Shown: positions 5,237-63,334 of the stretch, one piece after another
How positions within the stretch are numbered: the first letter of the stretch is position 1
How the letters are laid out: each line of letters starts with the position of its first letter
From: Leeia speluncae
GTDB lineage: Bacteria > Pseudomonadota > Gammaproteobacteria > Burkholderiales > Leeiaceae
Assembly: GCF_020564625.1 (NCBI RefSeq)
Contig: NZ_JAJBZT010000005.1
Coordinates: forward strand, 124,001-188,000
Direction: 5' to 3'
Length of the DNA: 64,000 nucleotides
The notes under the pieces: generated by a model
Seen by the model: only the letters and a program-made list of their open reading frames with translations
What the model was told of the DNA's origin: nothing
Databases searched by the model: none
Made by a program: the position numbers and the translations under genes

Positions 5237-5803
5237 ATGGATCTTCAAGCACTAGAAAATCACCGGACTTACCTGTATCGATATGCTCTCTTGCAACTCC
5301 GCGACCCTGAGCAAGCGGAAGATGTCACGCAGGAAACGCTACTTGCAGCACTCGAACAAGCCGATAAGTTTGAGGGAAAGTCTTCCCTCAAAACTTGGCT
5401 CACAGGCATTCTTAAATTCAAAATTATCGATTTAATTCGCTTAAAGCAAAAAGAACCGACCGCAACAGAAACCGAGCAAGACAATCTGGCGGGGCTTGGT
5501 GAATTAGAAGAGCTTTTTGATGAGCGCGGTCACTGGGCAGCACCCGGCGTATCCGATTGGGCAAAGCCAGAAAGCGCCATGAGTAATAGCCAGTTCTGGC
5601 AATTGTTTGAGTGGTGCTTAGCCAAATTACCCTTAAAAACCGCCCAAGCATTTATGATGCGTGAAGTAATGGGGATTGAACTCGCAGATATTTGTAAGGA
5701 TTTGGAGATTACCGCGACTAATGGATCAGTACTACTGTATCGCGCGCGGATGGGCTTAAGAACCTGTCTGAATGAAAAATGGTTTGCAGGAGAAGCCCAA
5801 TGA
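5237..5803 (+). CDS. ECF-type RNA polymerase sigma factor
   Basis: This 188-residue sigma-70 family protein contains region 2 (about 10-75; DPEQAEDVTQETLLAALE and the promoter-melting segment KTWLTGILKFKIIDLIR) and region 4 (about 130-180; LPLKTAQAFMMREVMGIELA followed by the helix-turn-helix). There are no region 1.1 or 3 sequences, as in ECF sigmas. A loop of about 45 residues rich in acid and tryptophan joins the two regions. Its stop overlaps the start of a zinc-finger protein by ATGA, the usual arrangement for a sigma factor with its anti-sigma. Target promoters cannot be told from this window. Confidence 0.92.
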   Translation: MDLQALENHRTYLYRYALLQLRDPEQAEDVTQETLLAALEQADKFEGKSSLKTWLTGILKFKIIDLIRLKQKEPTATETEQDNLAGLGELEELFDERGHWAAPGVSDWAKPESAMSNSQFWQLFEWCLAKLPLKTAQAFMMREVMGIELADICKDLEITATNGSVLLYRARMGLRTCLNEKWFAGEAQ

Positions 5804-5997
5804 GACCACTAAAAAGCTGCCGCAAAGCGACTTTTTTACTCTCTTGCAAACGAGATAGGCCGCTAACCACCACCGAAACCGTATGGCTAAAAATTCATCT
5901 AGCCATGTGCATTCATTGCAGACGCTTTGGCAAGCAAATCGACCACCTAGGTTCGATTGCCAATCTGTTTCCTGAATCCTCAGAAAAATCCAGATAA
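5800..5997 (+). CDS. Small zf-HC2 anti-sigma-like protein
   Basis: This 65-residue protein starts at the ATG overlapping the sigma stop (ATGA at 5800-5803), with GGAG 9 nt upstream; an in-frame ATG at 5779 lies inside the sigma gene and is less likely. It contains HLAMCIHC, the HX3CX2C zinc motif of ZAS-type anti-sigma factors, preceded by an additional Cys-rich N-terminus (CRKATFLLSCKRD). It has no membrane segment and no sensory domain, so it would be a minimal cytoplasmic anti-sigma, perhaps redox- or metal-sensitive through the Cys residues. Function is inferred from motif and coupling only. Confidence 0.8.
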   Translation: MRPLKSCRKATFLLSCKRDRPLTTTETVWLKIHLAMCIHCRRFGKQIDHLGSIANLFPESSEKSR

Positions 5998-6026: not shown

Positions 6027-6132
6027 CAAAATAAAGTCCATTCCAATTCAGTTGACTAAACTGAGGCAAGTTGCTACTGCAGTGGGGTATTCATTCTCAA
6101 AGCAGTAGTTTGTATTCTACTGCGCACACTTA

Positions 6133-6146
6133 CATTTGGACAAATG
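6133..6146. promoter_or_regulatory. Putative MarR operator in front of the marR gene
   Basis: The sequence CATTTG-GA-CAAATG has two perfect 6-bp arms and a 2-bp centre. The same arms occur at 6787-6800 and 10451-10466. It lies 88 bp before the MarR gene, a position that fits autoregulation. Binding is inferred. Confidence 0.6.
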
Positions 6147-6234
6147 CTTTTTTAACGTAAATTTAAAATTTGTCATCCATACCACACATACGTGCGTTAT
6201 TATCTTAAGCATTACTCATAAGTAGATTTGAAAA

Positions 6235-6699
6235 ATGTCCGAGAGTCTAGACATTATTGCCTTAAAGAAATTTCGCATGATCTTCAAAAGTGTGCGCTCA
6301 CACTTTCATGAAGTAGAGCAGCAGTGCGGTGTGAGTGGCTCACAGTTATGGTTGCTATCCTGCTTAAAAAAGAAAGATAAACAGCGCGTCACTGAACTTG
6401 CGAATGCACTATCCATCCATCAGTCTACCGCCAGTAATTTGATTGAAAAAATGGTGCGAGAAGGCCTTGTTAAGAAAGAAAAATCGCTTGCTGATCAACG
6501 AGTAACACTCATTTCTCTAAGTGACCTAGGTTTAAGCGTTGTGTCCAAGGCTCCTGGCCCTGCAGAAGGCATTTTACCTGCGACGCTAAAAACACTTTCC
6601 GCTACCGAATTACATCAAATTTGCCAATCTTTAGATTTGATTTTATCGAAGATGGACATTGATCCTGCCGCTGGCCAGACCCCTCTTTCGGATCTTTAA
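6235..6699 (+). CDS. MarR family transcriptional regulator
   Basis: This 154-residue protein has the MarR winged helix-turn-helix: VTELANALSIHQSTASNLIE (recognition helix region), then LVKKEKSLADQRVTLISLSD, which forms the wing with the conserved D-R pair. Dimerisation helices flank it. It stands alone on the plus strand, 105 bp before the glycosyltransferase operon. Three matching palindromes in front of itself, that operon and the clc/antiporter pair suggest it controls all of them. The ligand is unknown; the neighbouring genes point to ionic or osmotic stress. Confidence 0.9.
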   Translation: MSESLDIIALKKFRMIFKSVRSHFHEVEQQCGVSGSQLWLLSCLKKKDKQRVTELANALSIHQSTASNLIEKMVREGLVKKEKSLADQRVTLISLSDLGLSVVSKAPGPAEGILPATLKTLSATELHQICQSLDLILSKMDIDPAAGQTPLSDL

Positions 6700-6732
6700 T
6701 CCGACGCTACTGTCTAAATTGCTTCCATGTGC

Positions 6733-6771
6733 ATACAAATGAACTAGCCTTGACGGCTAGCTAGTTTGTAT
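6733..6771. repeat. Imperfect inverted repeat between marR and the glycosyltransferase gene
   Basis: Two 17-nt arms (ATACAAA-tgaa-CTAGCC and GGCTAG-ctag-TTTGTAT) pair except for a 4-nt internal loop; the loop is TTGAC. There is no T run after it, so it is a poor terminator. Its outer ends (ATACAAA / TTTGTAT) resemble half-sites of the nearby palindromic operator, so it may be an additional regulatory site. Confidence 0.45.
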
Positions 6772-6786
6772 AGCAGTATAAAAATA

Positions 6787-6800
6787 TATTTGTACAAATA
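6787..6800. promoter_or_regulatory. Putative MarR operator in front of the GT-HAD / mscS operon
   Basis: A perfect 14-bp palindrome, TATTTGTACAAATA, ends 5 bp before the GGAGG ribosome site of the next gene. It shares the core ATTTGTACAAAT with the site at 10451-10466. Binding here would block early transcription or promoter escape. Confidence 0.65.
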
Positions 6801-6815
6801 CATTTGGAGGCAATC

Positions 6816-8231
6816 ATGTTAGCAACAGTCGTAATCCCTGCACTTAACGAAGAATTGAGGATTGCCGAAGTTGTTCAGTTTGCCACTGCGAGCAAGTTAG
6901 TCGGCGAGGTATTGGTTATCGATGACGGCTCTACGGATGCAACCGCCATTAGGGCCAAAGAAAATGGCGCCTATGTCATTACTAGCTCATTACTAGGAAA
7001 AGGCGCATCCATGGCAGATGGATTGGCACATGCCCATTTTGATCTGATTTTGTATCTTGATGGTGATCTAGCTGGTTTAAAAGATGGATTAATTGAGCAA
7101 CTACTTTACCCGCTATTGATTGGTAGTGCGGATTTCGTCAAAGCAGCCTTTGGCCGTGCCGGTGGGCGAGTAACTGAACTGACGGCCAAGCCGCTAATTC
7201 GCACCTTCTTTCCAGAATTGGCACATTACAAACAACCATTAGGCGGCATTATTGCTGCCCGTAGATCGGTATTAGAAACCTTAAAATTTGAAGATGATTA
7301 CGGCGTGGATGTCGGCTTATTGTTAGATGCCTCCTTAAAAAACGTCAAAATTGCGGAAGTGGAAATTGGTCGTATCGAACACGATAGCCAATCGTTAGAA
7401 AATCTCTCGCGCATGGCCGACCAAGTCAGTCGCACCATTTTCCGTTATGCACAAGAAGCGGGGCGTTTTACACAAGAACAAGTGAGCGAGGTAGTCGAGT
7501 CTGAACGTCATCTAGAAGCAGAAATTGACCGTGCTGCCATCGCTAGTAGCAAGCACCCAAAAATTGCTATTTTTGACATGGACGGCACCTTAACGAGTGG
7601 ACGATTTGTACAGCATCTGGCTGCAAAATGCGGCAAAGCTGAAGAATTGGCTTCTTTACTAGACCATTCAGACCTAGACAGCATTACACGCAGTAACTCC
7701 ATTGCACGCTTGTTTAGAGGCGTACCGAAGCAGATCTTTTTAGAAGTTGCAAAAGAGATCCCTCTCAATCGCCATGCGATTGAGACGATCAAAATTCTCA
7801 GACAAAACGGCTACACAGTTGGTGTGGTGAGTGATAGCTACTACATTGCGACTGAAACCCTTAGAAAGCGTGTTTTCGCTGACTTTGCTCTCGGTCATTT
7901 ATTGCAATTCAGAAATGATATTTGCACAGGTGGCCTACGCCTCAATCCGGTATTTGAAATGGACAGCGGTGGGTGCGGTAAGCACAAGCACTGTAAGAGC
8001 AATGTGCTACGTCAATTAGCCGAGCTGCGTCACCAACCATTTGAAAACCAGATTGCGATTGGAGACAACCTGAACGATCTTTGCATGCTAGAGATGGCAG
8101 ATGTTGGCTTTGCTTATGATCCGAAGCACGACTCACTTCGTGAAGCGCCGATTCAAGTGATTCACGATCTTTATACCATCGTGTCTCATCTCGATTTAAA
8201 CACCGACATTCACGCAACAGGAGAAGCATAG
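6816..8231 (+). CDS. Fused family-2-like glycosyltransferase and HAD-IB phosphatase
   Basis: The chosen ATG at 6816 has GGAGG 5 nt upstream; a TTG at 6804 overlaps that ribosome site and is unlikely. The N-terminal half (about 1-215) is a GT-A glycosyltransferase: VIPALNEE, VLVIDDGSTDAT and the metal-binding YLDGDLAGL. The C-terminal half (about 245-460) is a HAD phosphatase: FDMDGTLTSG (motif I, two Asp), VVSDSYY (II), a Lys-rich motif III and IAIGDNLNDL (IV). This order suggests glycosyl transfer to a phosphorylated acceptor followed by dephosphorylation, as for glucosyl- or mannosylglycerate, a compatible solute. That product is an inference. It is followed after 3 bp by an MscS channel gene. 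Confidence 0.85.
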   Translation: MLATVVIPALNEELRIAEVVQFATASKLVGEVLVIDDGSTDATAIRAKENGAYVITSSLLGKGASMADGLAHAHFDLILYLDGDLAGLKDGLIEQLLYPLLIGSADFVKAAFGRAGGRVTELTAKPLIRTFFPELAHYKQPLGGIIAARRSVLETLKFEDDYGVDVGLLLDASLKNVKIAEVEIGRIEHDSQSLENLSRMADQVSRTIFRYAQEAGRFTQEQVSEVVESERHLEAEIDRAAIASSKHPKIAIFDMDGTLTSGRFVQHLAAKCGKAEELASLLDHSDLDSITRSNSIARLFRGVPKQIFLEVAKEIPLNRHAIETIKILRQNGYTVGVVSDSYYIATETLRKRVFADFALGHLLQFRNDICTGGLRLNPVFEMDSGGCGKHKHCKSNVLRQLAELRHQPFENQIAIGDNLNDLCMLEMADVGFAYDPKHDSLREAPIQVIHDLYTIVSHLDLNTDIHATGEA

Positions 8232-8234
8232 AAT

Positions 8235-9110
8235 ATGACAGGGATAAGTATTTGGGAAAAATTCGCTGACTTCTTAGGGCACCTATCTAACACCGCTCTT
8301 CGTATTACGCTAGTCGTGGTATTGGCCTATGTTGCCATTCACCTCGCCCAAAAAGGGATTGTCGCGCTGCGAAAGCGTATTACCTTACGCATGGGGGATA
8401 ATGAATCCAAGAAGCGGGCAGAAACCATCGGCCGCGTTTGTCGCTATATTGTGACGGTCGTCATTTCATTGATTGCGGGCATGCTGATTCTAAGCGAACT
8501 CGGCGTGTCTGTTGCCCCAATTCTTGGTGCGGCAGGGGTTGTCGGTTTGGCGGTGGGTTTTGGCGCACAAAGCTTGGTCAAAGATTATTTCACCGGCTTC
8601 TTCTTATTGTTAGAAAACCAAATTCGCCAAGGCGATGTGGTTAAACTAGGCAACCATGAAGGTTTTGTAGAAGAAGTTACCCTCAGATTTGTTCGCCTAC
8701 GCGATTACGAAGGCAATGTGCATTTTGTGCCCAACGGTACTATTTCTACCGTCGTGAACAAAACCAGGGAATTTGCTTTTGCGGTACTAGACGTGTCAGC
8801 TGGTTATGATGATGATTTAGAAATGGCTATTCAAACCATGCAAGACACGATTAGTAAAATGCGTACGCAAGAAAAATGGCAAACCATCATCTTAGATGAG
8901 TTTGAATTTGCTGGTGTCGATGTACTAGGTGAATATGGTATTTCATTGAAAGGCCGCATTAAAGTGCAGCCACTTCAACAATGGAATGTACGCCGTGAAT
9001 TCTTACGTCAGATCAAACATGCTTTTGATCAGAAGGGTTTGACGATTCCCTACCCTCAGCTGACACTGCATCGTCCTCAAGAGGAATTGGTTGCACATGA
9101 AGACGCTTGA
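8235..9110 (+). CDS. Small-conductance mechanosensitive channel (MscS family)
   Basis: This 291-residue inner-membrane channel has three predicted membrane helices (about 17-40, 73-95 and 98-125). The pore helix GAAGVVGLAVGFGAQSLVKD carries the Gly/Ala packing of MscS TM3, followed by the beta domain (VRLRDYEGNVHFVPNG). Such channels open under membrane tension and release solutes on osmotic downshock. It begins 3 bp after the GT-HAD gene, so the two are probably co-transcribed: one makes, the other releases, solute. Its last 98 bp overlap the convergent CLC gene on the other strand. Confidence 0.92.
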   Translation: MTGISIWEKFADFLGHLSNTALRITLVVVLAYVAIHLAQKGIVALRKRITLRMGDNESKKRAETIGRVCRYIVTVVISLIAGMLILSELGVSVAPILGAAGVVGLAVGFGAQSLVKDYFTGFFLLLENQIRQGDVVKLGNHEGFVEEVTLRFVRLRDYEGNVHFVPNGTISTVVNKTREFAFAVLDVSAGYDDDLEMAIQTMQDTISKMRTQEKWQTIILDEFEFAGVDVLGEYGISLKGRIKVQPLQQWNVRREFLRQIKHAFDQKGLTIPYPQLTLHRPQEELVAHEDA

Positions 9111-10407
9111 TAAAGTTGTTAGCTAAAGAGTGGTATAGCGGTGGGCTGATTAGTCTTGAAATTGCATTAGCAATAAACGCGGTAGCAATGAGACTAATCA
9201 CCATCGCATGCCCATCTATCATTTCCATCACAATCACAAATGACGTAATTGGTGCTTGCGTGACTGCCGCTAAAAAGCCTGCCATTCCCAACGCCATCCA
9301 AGCCGTCGTCGTCACATCCCCCAGCCCTGTTAGCGACAAGTCTTGCCCAATCCCCGCCCCTACCGCCAAACTAGGTGCAAAGATACCACCAGGAATCGCC
9401 GCAAAATAAGAGAACAGCGTTGCCAACATTTTCTCGAACGCGAATAAGAATGGCATGGTTTGCTCGCCATCTAGTGCCAGCTTGGTCACCGAGTAGCCAC
9501 TACCATGCACTGCGCCGTGTGACGCCACACCAAGCAATGCCACCATCAGGCCACAAAATGCAGCAAAACCAACTGGATTATTCTTTCTGAACGCGCCAAT
9601 TCTTCCGCCCCAAGGCTGGCTACCCACCACCATTAAACGGCTAAACACACCACCCAAAACGCCACACATCCCTGCTGAAGCCAATACAGGCAGCCAAATG
9701 CCAGAGGAAATATTCGCCACTGATAATCGGCCAAAGTAGGTGTAATTCCCCTGCATAGAGATAGAAATCACACCAGCAAGAATAATCGCGGTCAGTAGCA
9801 CACCGTTAGTACGCTCTTCAAACTTCTTACCCAATTCTTCAATCGCAAATACGATTCCCGCTAGTGGCGTATTAAAAGCAGCCGCAATACCAGCTGATCC
9901 ACCGGCAATAATGAGTTGATGGGCAGAAATCGGAAAGCGACGCGGTAGCCAGCGTTGGCAGTACGCCATCAGGCTAGCGCCAACTTGCACAGAAGGCCCT
10001 TCACGCCCGGAAGAAAACCCGCAAAGCAAGGCACCAGTCCCCATGATGATCTTTCCAACAACAATTCTTAGGGACAACAATGGAGTAATTGGAATCTTTG
10101 AAGCGGATACGTGAATCGCGGCAATCACCTGTGGAATACCACTCCCCTCTGATCCAGCAAAATATTTACGGGTGAGCCAGGCAATTCCGGCACCACCTAG
10201 CGGCGTCACAATGAGCGGCATCCACCACGCCAAACGGTAGCCCTCGTTGAACCATTCGATACCTAAGTCTACTAACCTAGCAAAGAAAACAATGACTAAA
10301 CCCGCAGCAAATGCCATCAGCCAAATGACTAAACGGCCTTGCCATACACGCCAGTCATTTTGACGTAATAAACGATTTCGAATGGTTTGATAATCAGGGA
10401 TATGCAT
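9013..10407 (-). CDS. CLC-type chloride channel / H+-Cl- antiporter
   Basis: The 464-residue protein from the ATG at 10407 is a polytopic CLC transporter. Ion-pathway motifs are visible: GSGIPQV, GREGPSVQVG (with the gating glutamate) and GGIFAPSLAVGAG. A TTG at 10419 would add four residues (MYAP); neither start has a clear ribosome site. The hydrophilic C-terminal tail (residues about 435-464) is encoded entirely within the 98-bp antisense overlap with mscS. A TATAAT on this strand (10451-10446) touches the operator palindrome. The CLC type is the classical chloride type, unlike the second CLC at 34.6 kb. Confidence 0.9.
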   Translation of the reverse strand: MHIPDYQTIRNRLLRQNDWRVWQGRLVIWLMAFAAGLVIVFFARLVDLGIEWFNEGYRLAWWMPLIVTPLGGAGIAWLTRKYFAGSEGSGIPQVIAAIHVSASKIPITPLLSLRIVVGKIIMGTGALLCGFSSGREGPSVQVGASLMAYCQRWLPRRFPISAHQLIIAGGSAGIAAAFNTPLAGIVFAIEELGKKFEERTNGVLLTAIILAGVISISMQGNYTYFGRLSVANISSGIWLPVLASAGMCGVLGGVFSRLMVVGSQPWGGRIGAFRKNNPVGFAAFCGLMVALLGVASHGAVHGSGYSVTKLALDGEQTMPFLFAFEKMLATLFSYFAAIPGGIFAPSLAVGAGIGQDLSLTGLGDVTTTAWMALGMAGFLAAVTQAPITSFVIVMEMIDGHAMVISLIATAFIANAISRLISPPLYHSLANNFIKRLHVQPIPLEDDAVSAEGRESSNPSDQKHV

Positions 10408-10430
10408 AGGGGCGTACAACGTCAGTTAGC

Positions 10431-10453
10431 TGTATAATGTAAATCATTATACA
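10431..10453. promoter_or_regulatory. Back-to-back -10 elements in the clc/antiporter gap
   Basis: A perfect inverted repeat with 9-bp arms (TGTATAATG, 10431-10439, and CATTATACA, 10445-10453) places one TATAAT on each strand (plus 10433-10438, minus 10451-10446). No good -35 is seen for either, which would suit a regulated promoter. It abuts the operator at 10451-10466. Confidence 0.5.
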
Positions 10454-10466
10454 TTTGTACAAATGT
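10451..10466. promoter_or_regulatory. Putative MarR operator shared by clc and antiporter genes
   Basis: A perfect 16-bp palindrome, ACATTTGTACAAATGT, is the best copy of the three sites. It lies in the divergent promoter region, overlapping the minus-strand -10 and just downstream of the plus-strand -10, so one bound dimer could repress both genes. Confidence 0.68.
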
Positions 10467-10480
10467 GAAATGAGGTTATT

Positions 10481-11743
10481 TTGGAAATATCTTCAAACAT
10501 CCAACTGATTGGCACCATTATTTTTGGCATTGCCATCCTTCATACCTTTTCTACAGGCTTCTTTGAGCACCTTGCTCATAAAAATCCTGCCAACGCAGGG
10601 CTGTGGCATTTGCTTGGAGAAGTAGAGGTCGTGTTTGGCTTTTGGGCGATGGTGCTCATGCTTGCCATTTTCTTCGTTGCTGGCGAAGAAACCGCTATTC
10701 ATTACATAGATGGTCGAAACTTTACCGAACCGCTCTTCGTCTTTGCGATTATGGTGATTGCTGGGACTAGCCCTATTTTGACGAGTGTCATGAAAGTGGT
10801 GAATGTATTAGGCAAGGCAAGTCGCTTACCAGGAAGCTTAGGTCAGTACTTCCTGATTATGTCGCTTGTGCCTCTAGCAGGTTCATTTATTACCGAACCA
10901 GCTGCCATGACACTTGCTGCGATCATGCTTTCTGAGAAAATTTTTCAGCACAATATTTCTAATAAGTTGAAATACGCGACGATTGGTTGTTTATTCGTCA
11001 ATATCTCAATTGGCGGCACCCTGACTTCTTTTGCAGCACCGCCCGTATTAATGGTGGCTGGCGCGTGGAAGTGGGATAGCAACTTCATGTTGACCACCAT
11101 TGGCTGGAAAGCCGCCATTGCGATTGGCATCAATACGGTGTTGTTGTGTGCAATTTTCTTTAAAGAACTTCGCCAGCTTACCCCATCTAGTGATGCCAAT
11201 CAGGCTAAGCGTATTCCTTTGCCACTCGTGATTGTGCATTACCTATTTTTAGCTGGCGTGGTAATTTTCTCTCATCACCCTGCTATTTTCTTAGGCCTTT
11301 TCCTGTTCTTCTTAGGTTTAGCACAAGCCTACGAAAAATATCATCAACGCCTAATTCTAAAAGAAGGGTTATTGGTTGCCTTCTTTTTAGCGGGATTAGT
11401 CGTCTTAGGTGGTTTGCAAGAGTGGTGGCTAAAGCCGGTTTTAGTCGCCATGACCAGCGATCAAGTTTTCTGGGGGGCAACCATTTTGACGGCCTTTACC
11501 GACAATGCCGCTTTAACGTACTTAGGTTCTTTGGTCGATAATTTGTCGCCGGAGTTTAAATACGCCCTAGTGACAGGAGCCGTAACAGGGGGTGGCCTCA
11601 CCATTATTGCCAATGCGCCTAACCCTGCTGGCGTAGCGATTTTGAAGAACTACTTTGAAGAGTCTTCTATTAAACCGCTGAAGTTAGCCGCCGCCGCCGC
11701 AATACCCACCCTTATTTCTGCCACCTGCTTTTTGATGCTGTAA
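10481..11743 (+). CDS. Putative Na+/H+ antiporter (PF07399-like)
   Basis: This 420-residue protein has about ten or more hydrophobic helices and begins IQLIGTIIFGIAILHTFSTG. It resembles the family annotated as putative Na+/H+ antiporters; conserved-looking polar positions in membrane segments include FTDNAALTYLGSL and NAPNPAG, which recall NhaD-type transporters. The start is a TTG with GAGG 6 nt upstream; no ATG is close. It would exchange sodium for protons at the inner membrane. It is divergent from the CLC gene and shares the MarR-type palindrome with it, which suits joint control of Na+ and Cl-. Confidence 0.82.
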   Translation: MEISSNIQLIGTIIFGIAILHTFSTGFFEHLAHKNPANAGLWHLLGEVEVVFGFWAMVLMLAIFFVAGEETAIHYIDGRNFTEPLFVFAIMVIAGTSPILTSVMKVVNVLGKASRLPGSLGQYFLIMSLVPLAGSFITEPAAMTLAAIMLSEKIFQHNISNKLKYATIGCLFVNISIGGTLTSFAAPPVLMVAGAWKWDSNFMLTTIGWKAAIAIGINTVLLCAIFFKELRQLTPSSDANQAKRIPLPLVIVHYLFLAGVVIFSHHPAIFLGLFLFFLGLAQAYEKYHQRLILKEGLLVAFFLAGLVVLGGLQEWWLKPVLVAMTSDQVFWGATILTAFTDNAALTYLGSLVDNLSPEFKYALVTGAVTGGGLTIIANAPNPAGVAILKNYFEESSIKPLKLAAAAAIPTLISATCFLML

Positions 11744-11807: not shown

Positions 11808-12209
11808 TTATATCGCAGGGTCTCCCTGCACATACCGGCGTAAACAGATCACCGCCTCTTCCTCTGTATCGAAGATAAACAAAGGGTATGGTGGTTTCTG
11901 TACGGTAAGATAGGTATTAATCAGATTCCGCACATGCCAACTATCCGTCACATAAGCCACAGCGGTAGTAATTGAGCAGTAATCCGGTGATCGTAGTGCT
12001 TTGGGTAGTTGCGAATCAATACTGGGGCGGCCAGTTACTTTGACTAACACGGGCATGGCTAGCTGGCTAATTTCGCGACGCCGACGCAGCACCTCAGCCA
12101 ATCCTTCACCTGATAAGTTAGGATTGTGCCCGTAGTCGATACACATGATGCCATCTGTTCGTAACTGAACAGTTGGTGTGTGTATATGTGGTAAGGAAGG
12201 CGCTGTCAT
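11808..12209 (-). CDS. STAS/SEC14-like (DUF7793-like) protein, copy 1
   Basis: This is a 133-residue soluble protein with no signal peptide or membrane helix. The C-terminal part, AVAYVTDSWHVRNLI...PYPLFIFDTEEEA, has the shape of the STAS/SEC14 (SpoIIAA-like) small-domain family, in which an alternating strand-helix fold ends with 'PxxLFxxEEEALxWL'. It is a paralogue of the protein at 12521-12913 (roughly half the residues identical by eye). It may be a regulator or scaffold, but no function can be assigned. It converges on the antiporter gene. Confidence 0.7.
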   Translation of the reverse strand: MTAPSLPHIHTPTVQLRTDGIMCIDYGHNPNLSGEGLAEVLRRRREISQLAMPVLVKVTGRPSIDSQLPKALRSPDYCSITTAVAYVTDSWHVRNLINTYLTVQKPPYPLFIFDTEEEAVICLRRYVQGDPAI

Positions 12210-12520: not shown

Positions 12521-12913
12521 TTATTTAGCAGGGACAAATCGACTTAACCAAGCCAATGCCTCTTCTTCTTGCTCGAATACAAATAGAGGATAGCTAGGTG
12601 TCTGGATAGTCATATAGGTATCTAGCAATTGTCGTACATACCAACTGCTAGTGACATAGGCAACCGCGGGAGTGACTTCGCAATATTCCGCAGACTTCAC
12701 AATCGAGATTATTTTAGGGTCTAAAATTGGACGCCCATCCATCTTTATCATTAAGGGCATTGGTTTGAGAGAGAACTCTCTTCGAATTCTCAACACTTCT
12801 AATACCCCTTCAGATGTCAGTGTGCGTGCATAGCCATGATCAACACACACAATACCATCCTCTCGGAAAATAATTTCCGGAATATGTAATTTGGGTATTT
12901 CAGACGGATTCAT
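12521..12913 (-). CDS. STAS/SEC14-like (DUF7793-like) protein, copy 2
   Basis: This 130-residue protein is the tandem paralogue of the one at 11808-12209. Shared blocks include the opening 'DGI-CVDxG', 'GxxEVLRxRRE', 'MPxxxKxxGRPxxD', 'AVAYVTxSWxVRxLxxTYxTxQ' and 'YPLFxFxxEEEA'. Its DNA is more AT-rich than copy 1, so the duplication is not recent. No catalytic residues stand out. It might work with copy 1 as a heterodimer or be tuned to another partner; that is speculation. Confidence 0.7.
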   Translation of the reverse strand: MNPSEIPKLHIPEIIFREDGIVCVDHGYARTLTSEGVLEVLRIRREFSLKPMPLMIKMDGRPILDPKIISIVKSAEYCEVTPAVAYVTSSWYVRQLLDTYMTIQTPSYPLFVFEQEEEALAWLSRFVPAK

Positions 12914-34577: not shown

Positions 34578-34632
34578 CAAACACCGGTCGGTCGGCCATC
34601 AGGTATAATCGACCGGTGTTTGATTTCTTTTT
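34578..34632 (+). terminator. Long hairpin with internal TATAAT before the CLC-F gene
   Basis: A 13-bp perfect stem (34578-34590 and 34610-34622, arm caaacaccggtcg) encloses a 19-nt loop ending in TATAAT (34604-34609). T-rich sequence follows (atttcttttt). It may terminate the riboswitch transcript, and the TATAAT may be the -10 of the downstream gene. Confidence 0.65.
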
Positions 34633-34637
34633 GCAAG

Positions 34638-35852
34638 ATGAAGACGCATCTCACCACGCCATCACGCCTCATTGCCTACTTTGCTAAGTGGATTGCAATT
34701 GCATCGATCATCGCTTTATTGGCGGGATCTGCTTCTGCATTTTTCTTAATTAGCTTGGAGTGGGTCACTCATACTCGCTTAACCAATCCACTACTCTTAC
34801 TTGGCCTTCCAATTGGCGGGGCATTTGTGGGCTGGTGCTATCATCGTTTTGGGCAATCCGTCGAGGCGGGCAACAACCTCTTAATTGACGAAATCCACGA
34901 TCCTAAACAAATTATCCCGCTCCGCATGGCACCACTCGTGCTCATGGGTACGTTAGTGTCCCATTTGTTTGGCGCATCCGTCGGCAGAGAAGGCACAGCC
35001 GTGCAAATGGGTGGCGCCCTAGCAGATCAATTAACCCACTATTTCCGGCTTAATCAGGCAGATCGGAAACTCATTCTAATGTCTGGGATTAGTGCTGGCT
35101 TTGCCTCTGTGTTTGGTACGCCGATTGCAGGTGCAATATTTGGGCTAGAGGTATGGATGTTAGGGAGATTGCGGCACGATGCGCTATTTCCTTGTTTAGT
35201 GTCTGCCTTTCTTGCCAATCTCGTCACCGGGCTTTGGGGTGTACATCACACCCATTATCAGATTGGGCTTATCCCTGATTTTTCTATCAGCACCTGGCTT
35301 TGGGTTCTCTTCTTAGGTGCAGCAGCGGGCTTATGCGGCAAAGGGTTCGCCACACTCACCCATTTCATCGGTAGCCGAGCTAAAAAAGCCATCCCCTCTC
35401 CTGTTTTACGTCCATTTATCGGCGGCGCGGTGTTGGCGGCCCTCTTCCTCTGTTTCCCTTTGTCCGCCTATTCTGGATTAGGTATTCCGGTGATTCAAAG
35501 CGCCTTTCACCAAACGCTAAATGCATATGATTGGTTAGCTAAACTGCTACTCACCGCTTTTTCGATTGGCACCGGCTTTAAAGGTGGCGAAGTCACTCCC
35601 CTCTTTTACATGGGAGCCACGCTTGGCAATGCCATTGCTCAACTCAGCCACTTGCCCTTAGGCCTCATGGCAGGGCTTGGTTTTATCGCTGTTTTCAGTG
35701 GTGCGGCCAATACGCCGCTCGCCTGCACCCTAATGGCAATCGAGCTCTTCGGCGGTCAGATCGCGCTCCCCGCTTTATTCGTCGCCACGGTTAGCTACCT
35801 ATTTTCTGGTTCGGCCACCATTTACAAAGCACAACGCAGCGAATCTCCCTAA
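34638..35852 (+). CDS. CLC-F-type fluoride (or chloride) transporter
   Basis: The ATG at 34638 gives 404 residues; a TTG at 34620 lies in the hairpin. The polytopic protein has the CLC pattern but differs from the chloride type: ASVGREGTAVQMGGALAD and GFKGGEVTPLFYMGATLGN, the latter two being typical of the fluoride/proton antiporter branch (CLC-F). The usual GSGIP motif is missing. It would expel fluoride. No fluoride (crcB) riboswitch was found before it. Assignment as CLC-F is from motifs only. Confidence 0.8.
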   Translation: MKTHLTTPSRLIAYFAKWIAIASIIALLAGSASAFFLISLEWVTHTRLTNPLLLLGLPIGGAFVGWCYHRFGQSVEAGNNLLIDEIHDPKQIIPLRMAPLVLMGTLVSHLFGASVGREGTAVQMGGALADQLTHYFRLNQADRKLILMSGISAGFASVFGTPIAGAIFGLEVWMLGRLRHDALFPCLVSAFLANLVTGLWGVHHTHYQIGLIPDFSISTWLWVLFLGAAAGLCGKGFATLTHFIGSRAKKAIPSPVLRPFIGGAVLAALFLCFPLSAYSGLGIPVIQSAFHQTLNAYDWLAKLLLTAFSIGTGFKGGEVTPLFYMGATLGNAIAQLSHLPLGLMAGLGFIAVFSGAANTPLACTLMAIELFGGQIALPALFVATVSYLFSGSATIYKAQRSESP

Positions 35853-63131: not shown

Positions 63132-63334
63132 GTATGTAGATACGCCTTTTATGGATCACATAAAGTACAGATGAATCAAGTTGTTGATTCATTAGCGTTA
63201 AGCTGCAGTTGTTCATTAAACAACGCAAACCAGATTATATCACTTCAAGAGTAGGGTAAAGCACCTCCATCACACCCAGCGAAAAATTTGCACAAAAAAT
63301 AGACAAATTTCTTCCGAAAAAGCCAACTTCGCGG

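Follow-up and report, generated by a model that had tools for sequence, protein, structure and literature searches.

The window (the whole stretch of DNA analysed here, 64,000 nucleotides of the Leeia speluncae genome) carries a gene for a MarR-family regulator beside genes for a glycosyltransferase-phosphatase fusion, a mechanosensitive channel, a ClC-type transporter, and a putative antiporter, with three palindromes in the intergenic regions. Leeia belongs to the Betaproteobacteria and is placed in the Neisseriales at NCBI. The features of the unit are as follows.

6235..6699, + strand: marR, MarR-family regulator of 154 aa (Pfam MarR PF01047, 7e-12, 45.5 bits against a cut-off of 24.6)
6816..8231, + strand: GT-HAD, fusion of a GpgS-like GT2 glycosyltransferase and an HAD-IB phosphatase (Pfam, NCBIfam)
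8235..9110, + strand: mscS, small mechanosensitive channel (PF00924, 1.4e-18; NCBIfam MscS models)
9013..10407, - strand: clc, ClC chloride channel or Cl-/H+ exchanger (PF00654, 5e-80; ClcA model 4.5e-51, below cut-off)
10481..11743, + strand: putative Na+/H+ antiporter (PF07399, 1e-182)
6131..6148, no strand: putative operator 1, TACATTTGGACAAATGCT (14-mer CATTTGGACAAATG, 6133-6146), 87-104 bp 5' of marR
6785..6802, no strand: putative operator 2, TATATTTGTACAAATACA (14-mer TATTTGTACAAATA, 6787-6800), directly 5' of the GT-HAD ribosome-binding site
10450..10467, no strand: putative operator 3, TACATTTGTACAAATGTG (14-mer CATTTGTACAAATG, 10452-10465), separating the divergent clc and antiporter genes

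The first-pass annotation had assigned these five products from the letters alone, and the Pfam matches bear out each of its calls (MarR, GT2 plus HAD, MscS, ClC, and a PF07399 putative Na+/H+ antiporter). The palindromes also lie where it had put them, at 6133-6146 and 6787-6800, with the third 14-mer now placed precisely at 10452-10465. Since mscS begins a few bases past the GT-HAD stop, these two genes probably form one operon; the 3' end of clc overlaps the end of mscS. The glycosyltransferase domain of GT-HAD matched solved chains of glucosyl-3-phosphoglycerate synthase (GpgS) in the PDB (2e-28) and a chain named mannosyl-3-phosphoglycerate synthase (5e-26), and the HAD domain matched HAD enzymes of the SerB or phosphoserine phosphatase type (1e-18). 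The protein scored 183 bits against a cut-off of 262 for the curated NCBIfam GpgS model, and so it resembles GpgS with membership in that family unconfirmed. The likeliest reading is that of a bifunctional glucosyl-3-phosphoglycerate synthase/phosphatase with glucosylglycerate as its predicted product. This would resemble the GpgS/GpgP pathway in its synthase, but in Leeia the synthase is fused to its HAD-IB, SerB-like phosphatase.

When the window was scanned with a matrix built from other genera only (the held-out matrix), the three palindromes were the three highest-ranking sites in the 64 kb, at 21.5, 20.1, and 14.8 bits. The lowest of these scores belongs to the marR-proximal palindrome and only narrowly exceeds the 14.4 bits obtained both for the next match, at position 63283, and for the maximum in the reversed window; this palindrome is, however, kept in Leeia oryzae. 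The earlier remark that no other copy was noticed in the window is correct for exact copies. The plain 14-mer with two or fewer mismatches was found 8 times against 5.8 expected, which is neither rarer than chance nor an enrichment, and the case therefore rests on conservation. As definitions of a regulon, the 14-mer with 2 mismatches and the 16-mer ACATTTGTACAAATGT with 3 mismatches were both rejected, since a control did equally well; site strength alone thus does not define the regulon. A second ClC gene in the window (34620-35852) had no site above 9 bits in its preceding 280 bases.

The 3.78-Mb genome holds 16 exact copies of ATTTGNNCAAAT, compared with 2 of the reversed pattern. Three of the 16 fall within 4.3 kb at the marR locus, and five fall within coding regions. 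Two further copies form a tandem pair ahead of a glutamine-synthetase-like gene; they are probably the sites of another regulator. Another copy (exact ATTTGTACAAAT) lies about 40 bp upstream of a gene named by eye as CorC-like (locus L043, genome position C3:358933); this gene is a possible fourth target, and no counterpart was seen in Leeia oryzae.

Comparison with L. oryzae (G002) showed that the order of marR, GT-HAD, mscS, and convergent clc is kept, with protein identities of 62% for MarR, 65% for GT-HAD, 64% for MscS, and 68% for ClC. The palindrome precedes marR, GT-HAD, and clc in that species, the same three promoters as in the window, and the held-out matrix returned the counterparts of the window's three sites as the top three of the L. 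oryzae region. In pairwise alignments of the two species each palindrome was the longest conserved block of its intergenic region or ranked with the longest; the shared blocks read TTACATTT--ACAAATG in the marR promoter, AAAATATATTTGTACAAAT in the GT-HAD promoter, and TACATTTGTACAAA upstream of clc. An ATTTG half-site 15 bp beyond operator 2 is kept as well. The antiporter gene is not adjacent to clc in L. oryzae and is the least conserved member of the unit. Relatives adjoin marR genes of the same clade at four other loci (L060, L064, L088, and L129). A third Leeia genome (G001) contains no MarR of this clade, no GT-HAD, and no ClC gene of any kind, and no operator with two or fewer mismatches was found in it. 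It might be argued that the palindromes are chance occurrences in AT-rich intergenic DNA, as the chance-level count of the 14-mer with 2 mismatches would allow. However, their retention at three promoters in L. oryzae and their ranks of 1 to 3 under a matrix trained on other genera largely refute this explanation, to which we give almost no credence.

Two MarR-family proteins with an osmotic role, EctR1 of Methylomicrobium alcaliphilum and CosR of Vibrio, are described as repressors of compatible-solute synthesis and transport genes at low salinity (PMC7876524). In a midpoint-rooted tree of 71 rows, the window's MarR did not group with ect-linked MarR proteins and sits in a clade of its own; leaving aside a single long-branch row placed inside it, the clade held together with 96/99 support. 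The ect-linked proteins are the group nearest to this clade, and the clade, the EctR-type proteins, and the NAGGN-linked MarR proteins group together against other MarRs (96/96). In profile searches, clade members reached 150-213 bits and EctR-type proteins 77-101 bits (77-99 with model A1), and identity between the clade and the EctR-type proteins is 22-26% (22-25% for ectC-linked proteins). The recognition helix is of the type IHQSTASNL in the clade and SQATVTSIL in EctR-type proteins. No match to ectoine synthase was found in the Leeia genome, and the marR gene there has no ectABC linkage. Related regulators were detected at an E value of 1e-20 in 102 of 399 genomes of the Burkholderiales (in the GTDB sense), a count that includes some lower-scoring EctR-like matches; the clade itself is mostly from Burkholderiales, with related regulators also in other orders of the class.

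An expectation-maximisation search from random seeds over the upstream regions of 83 regulators of the clade, from which Leeia had been withheld, recovered the motif TanaTTTGtaCAAAtntA de novo, with a log-likelihood of 219 compared with 38-43 for block shuffles. Block shuffles served as the control because reversed sequence merely yields the reversed motif and is invalid for motif discovery; a background drawn from random windows within the same loci was dropped because real sites lie inside them. The clade-wide operator consensus is TAnATTTGTACAAATnTA. The motif is present at about 62% of the clade loci, leaving about 38% of the clade regulators without a clear upstream site, and most clade members outside the Burkholderiales retain it. 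MarR proteins bind as dimers to palindromes of 16-20 bp, often in their own promoters. The TTTGNNCAAA palindrome of the clade lies in the promoter of the window's own marR (putative operator 1) and is kept in L. oryzae. Across 861 kb of clade loci there were 74 sites above 18 bits, compared with 2 in reversed sequence, and paired sites at a spacing of 15 bp were frequent (45 counts, control 5). With the marR upstream regions excluded, 17 of 51 sites above 16 bits were directly upstream of osmotic genes where 2.1 were expected (p = 9e-12, for clade loci that are not fully independent of each other). Away from the marR promoters, sites precede clc, GT-HAD, OtsB-type trehalose phosphatase, and mscS, and the sites before fructokinase-sucrose synthase operons fall in the region shared with marR.

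These data also bear on whether marR is the relevant gene. AT-rich palindromic motifs are common, and the 16 exact genomic copies of ATTTGNNCAAAT might suggest that another regulator binds the palindromes and that marR is a bystander. We consider this very unlikely, as the search in other genera rediscovered the motif upstream of the MarR clade, as the motif follows the clade and is missing in front of EctR-type MarRs, and as the G001 congener, which has no MarR of the clade, has no good site.

The neighborhoods of the clade regulators are rich in osmotic genes. Of 80 clade loci, 53 had one or more osmolyte or osmotic genes within 6 kb of marR; the remaining 27, some of them on short contigs, had none of the osmotic families within that distance. 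The clc gene was within 6 kb in 20 of the 80 loci, compared with 0.2-0.75 expected from the roughly 0.8 ClC genes per genome in the order, and the clc-bearing loci span many genera, with related species among them not independent. Within the same distance, the 80 loci yielded mscS at 11, fructokinase-like PfkB at 11, PF00999 antiporters at 11 plus 4, sucrose-phosphate synthase at 10, OtsB at 9, an alpha-amylase-family protein read as amylosucrase at 9, and a mannosyl-3-phosphoglycerate phosphatase-glycerate kinase fusion at 4. An example of the last, a fusion of mannosyl-3-phosphoglycerate phosphatase with glycerate 2-kinase, lies at 7339-9549 of locus L145, and such genes adjoin clade marR genes in several genomes. 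The palindrome often stands in front of the osmotic neighbors. The sites, their conservation, their link to the MarR clade, and the link of the clade to osmotic genes are all visible in the DNA itself.

We think it likely, on this comparative evidence, that the window's MarR is a local, self-regulating osmotic regulator, most probably a repressor, that acts through the palindrome at three promoters. The earlier proposal of one MarR protein over a coherent salt and osmotic stress unit draws support from the footprinting between Leeia species, the family-wide motif, and the strong co-occurrence with osmotic genes in other genera. In the proposed mechanism, a MarR dimer would bind TAnATTTGTACAAATnTA at three places: upstream of marR, upstream of the GT-HAD/mscS operon, and in the gap that separates clc from the Na+/H+ antiporter gene. 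At low osmolarity it would block all three promoters. Once salt or osmolarity rose, MarR would come off its operators. GT-HAD could then make glucosylglycerate, MscS would be in place as a safety channel for a later fall in osmolarity, and ClC and Na+/H+ transport would serve ion balance. Binding by MarR, repression over activation, the osmotic signal, and the GT-HAD product are what we infer from these sequences, and the notion of a repressor relieved by salt is carried over by analogy from EctR-type proteins of only 22-26% identity.

The signal is the step at which a different reading has the most to recommend it. MarR proteins often sense small ligands, and ion and proton transporters (clc and the PF00999 and PF07399 antiporters) are as frequent as solute enzymes among the clade targets. 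It is possible, if less probable than an osmotic signal, that MarR controls these genes but responds less to osmolarity as such than to another cue, which might be an ion such as Cl- or K+, pH, stress on the envelope, or a small ligand. However, genes for sucrose, trehalose, and glucosyl- or mannosylglycerate recur nearby, and these point to osmotic or desiccation stress. As to the direction of control, some MarR proteins activate, and in a promoter scan consensus promoters were no more frequent than chance and no promoter elements could be mapped, which leaves room for an activator or dual regulator of these operons. We regard this as improbable: operator 2 is directly 5' of the ribosome-binding site, a position typical of repression, and EctR1 and CosR are repressors (PMC7876524). 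A local repressor responding to osmolarity remains our preferred reading.

The first-pass annotation had regarded the unit as not matching a described system. This holds for the clade together with its operator and target set, which appear to be new, as no earlier description of them was found in a literature search that was thin on subscription journals; it does not extend to MarR osmotic regulons as a concept, since EctR1, CosR, and PA3458 are known and MarR osmotic repressors are an established kind. The CosR consensus, quoted as TTTGA-NN-TCTAA (PMC8070244), is similar in layout to the clade operator. However, the clade's own operator TTTGTACAAA was not found upstream of EctR-type genes, including the regulators that adjoin ectC, and the clade is separate (96/99) with another recognition helix. 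EctR1 and CosR target ectoine and betaine genes, whereas the predicted targets in Leeia are GT-HAD, MscS, ClC, and PF07399. In Pseudomonas aeruginosa, the MarR-type regulator PA3458 adjoins and controls osmolyte (NAGGN) genes (PMC8070244). Its motif, TTHGNASDSRAARDA, is loose, with more than 300 ChIP sites (PMC8070244), in contrast to the few strong palindromes of the Leeia unit, and a NAGGN-linked MarR (L257), the linkage shown by PA3458, fell outside the clade in the tree. OpcR, GbsR, and OpuAR of Bacillus are described as repressors, of the MarR or GbsR type, that act on the uptake and synthesis of osmoprotectants; they differ in coming from Firmicutes and in controlling betaine and choline systems.

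For the clade as a whole, we lean toward a general osmotic regulator that recognizes one conserved operator, TAnATTTGTACAAATnTA, which frequently occurs as two copies spaced 15 bp apart. In each lineage this regulator would run the osmolyte pathway present there (sucrose, trehalose, or glucosyl/mannosylglycerate), along with ClC, MscS, and cation/proton antiporters. The analysis turned up no named regulator for the genes of sucrose, trehalose, and glucosylglycerate-type osmolytes in these bacteria. Because the clade supplies a single regulator, a single operator, and target lists ready for use, osmotic control in these lineages becomes directly testable. The clade also suggests a part for ClC transporters in their salt-stress response.

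Several smaller features were observed at the locus. The stretch directly 5' of the marR promoter, 5237-5997, holds a sigma-70-family (ECF-like) gene and, after it, a short, cysteine-containing open reading frame that may encode an anti-sigma factor. Further upstream of marR than operator 1, a block at 6048-6062 (AGTTGACTAAACT) is kept in L. oryzae and is possibly a promoter element or the site of a second regulator. Between marR and GT-HAD, an imperfect 17-bp inverted repeat (ATACAAATGAACTAGCC / GGCTAGCTAGTTTGTAT, 6734-6773) is not kept in L. oryzae. Adjoining operator 3, at 10435-10455, is the dyad GTATAATG-TAAAT-CATTATAC, which has TATAAT on each strand; these may be the overlapping -10 boxes of the divergently transcribed clc and antiporter genes. 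At 11808-12209 and 12521-12913 there are two adjacent DUF7793 genes (PF25056), which probably arose by duplication.
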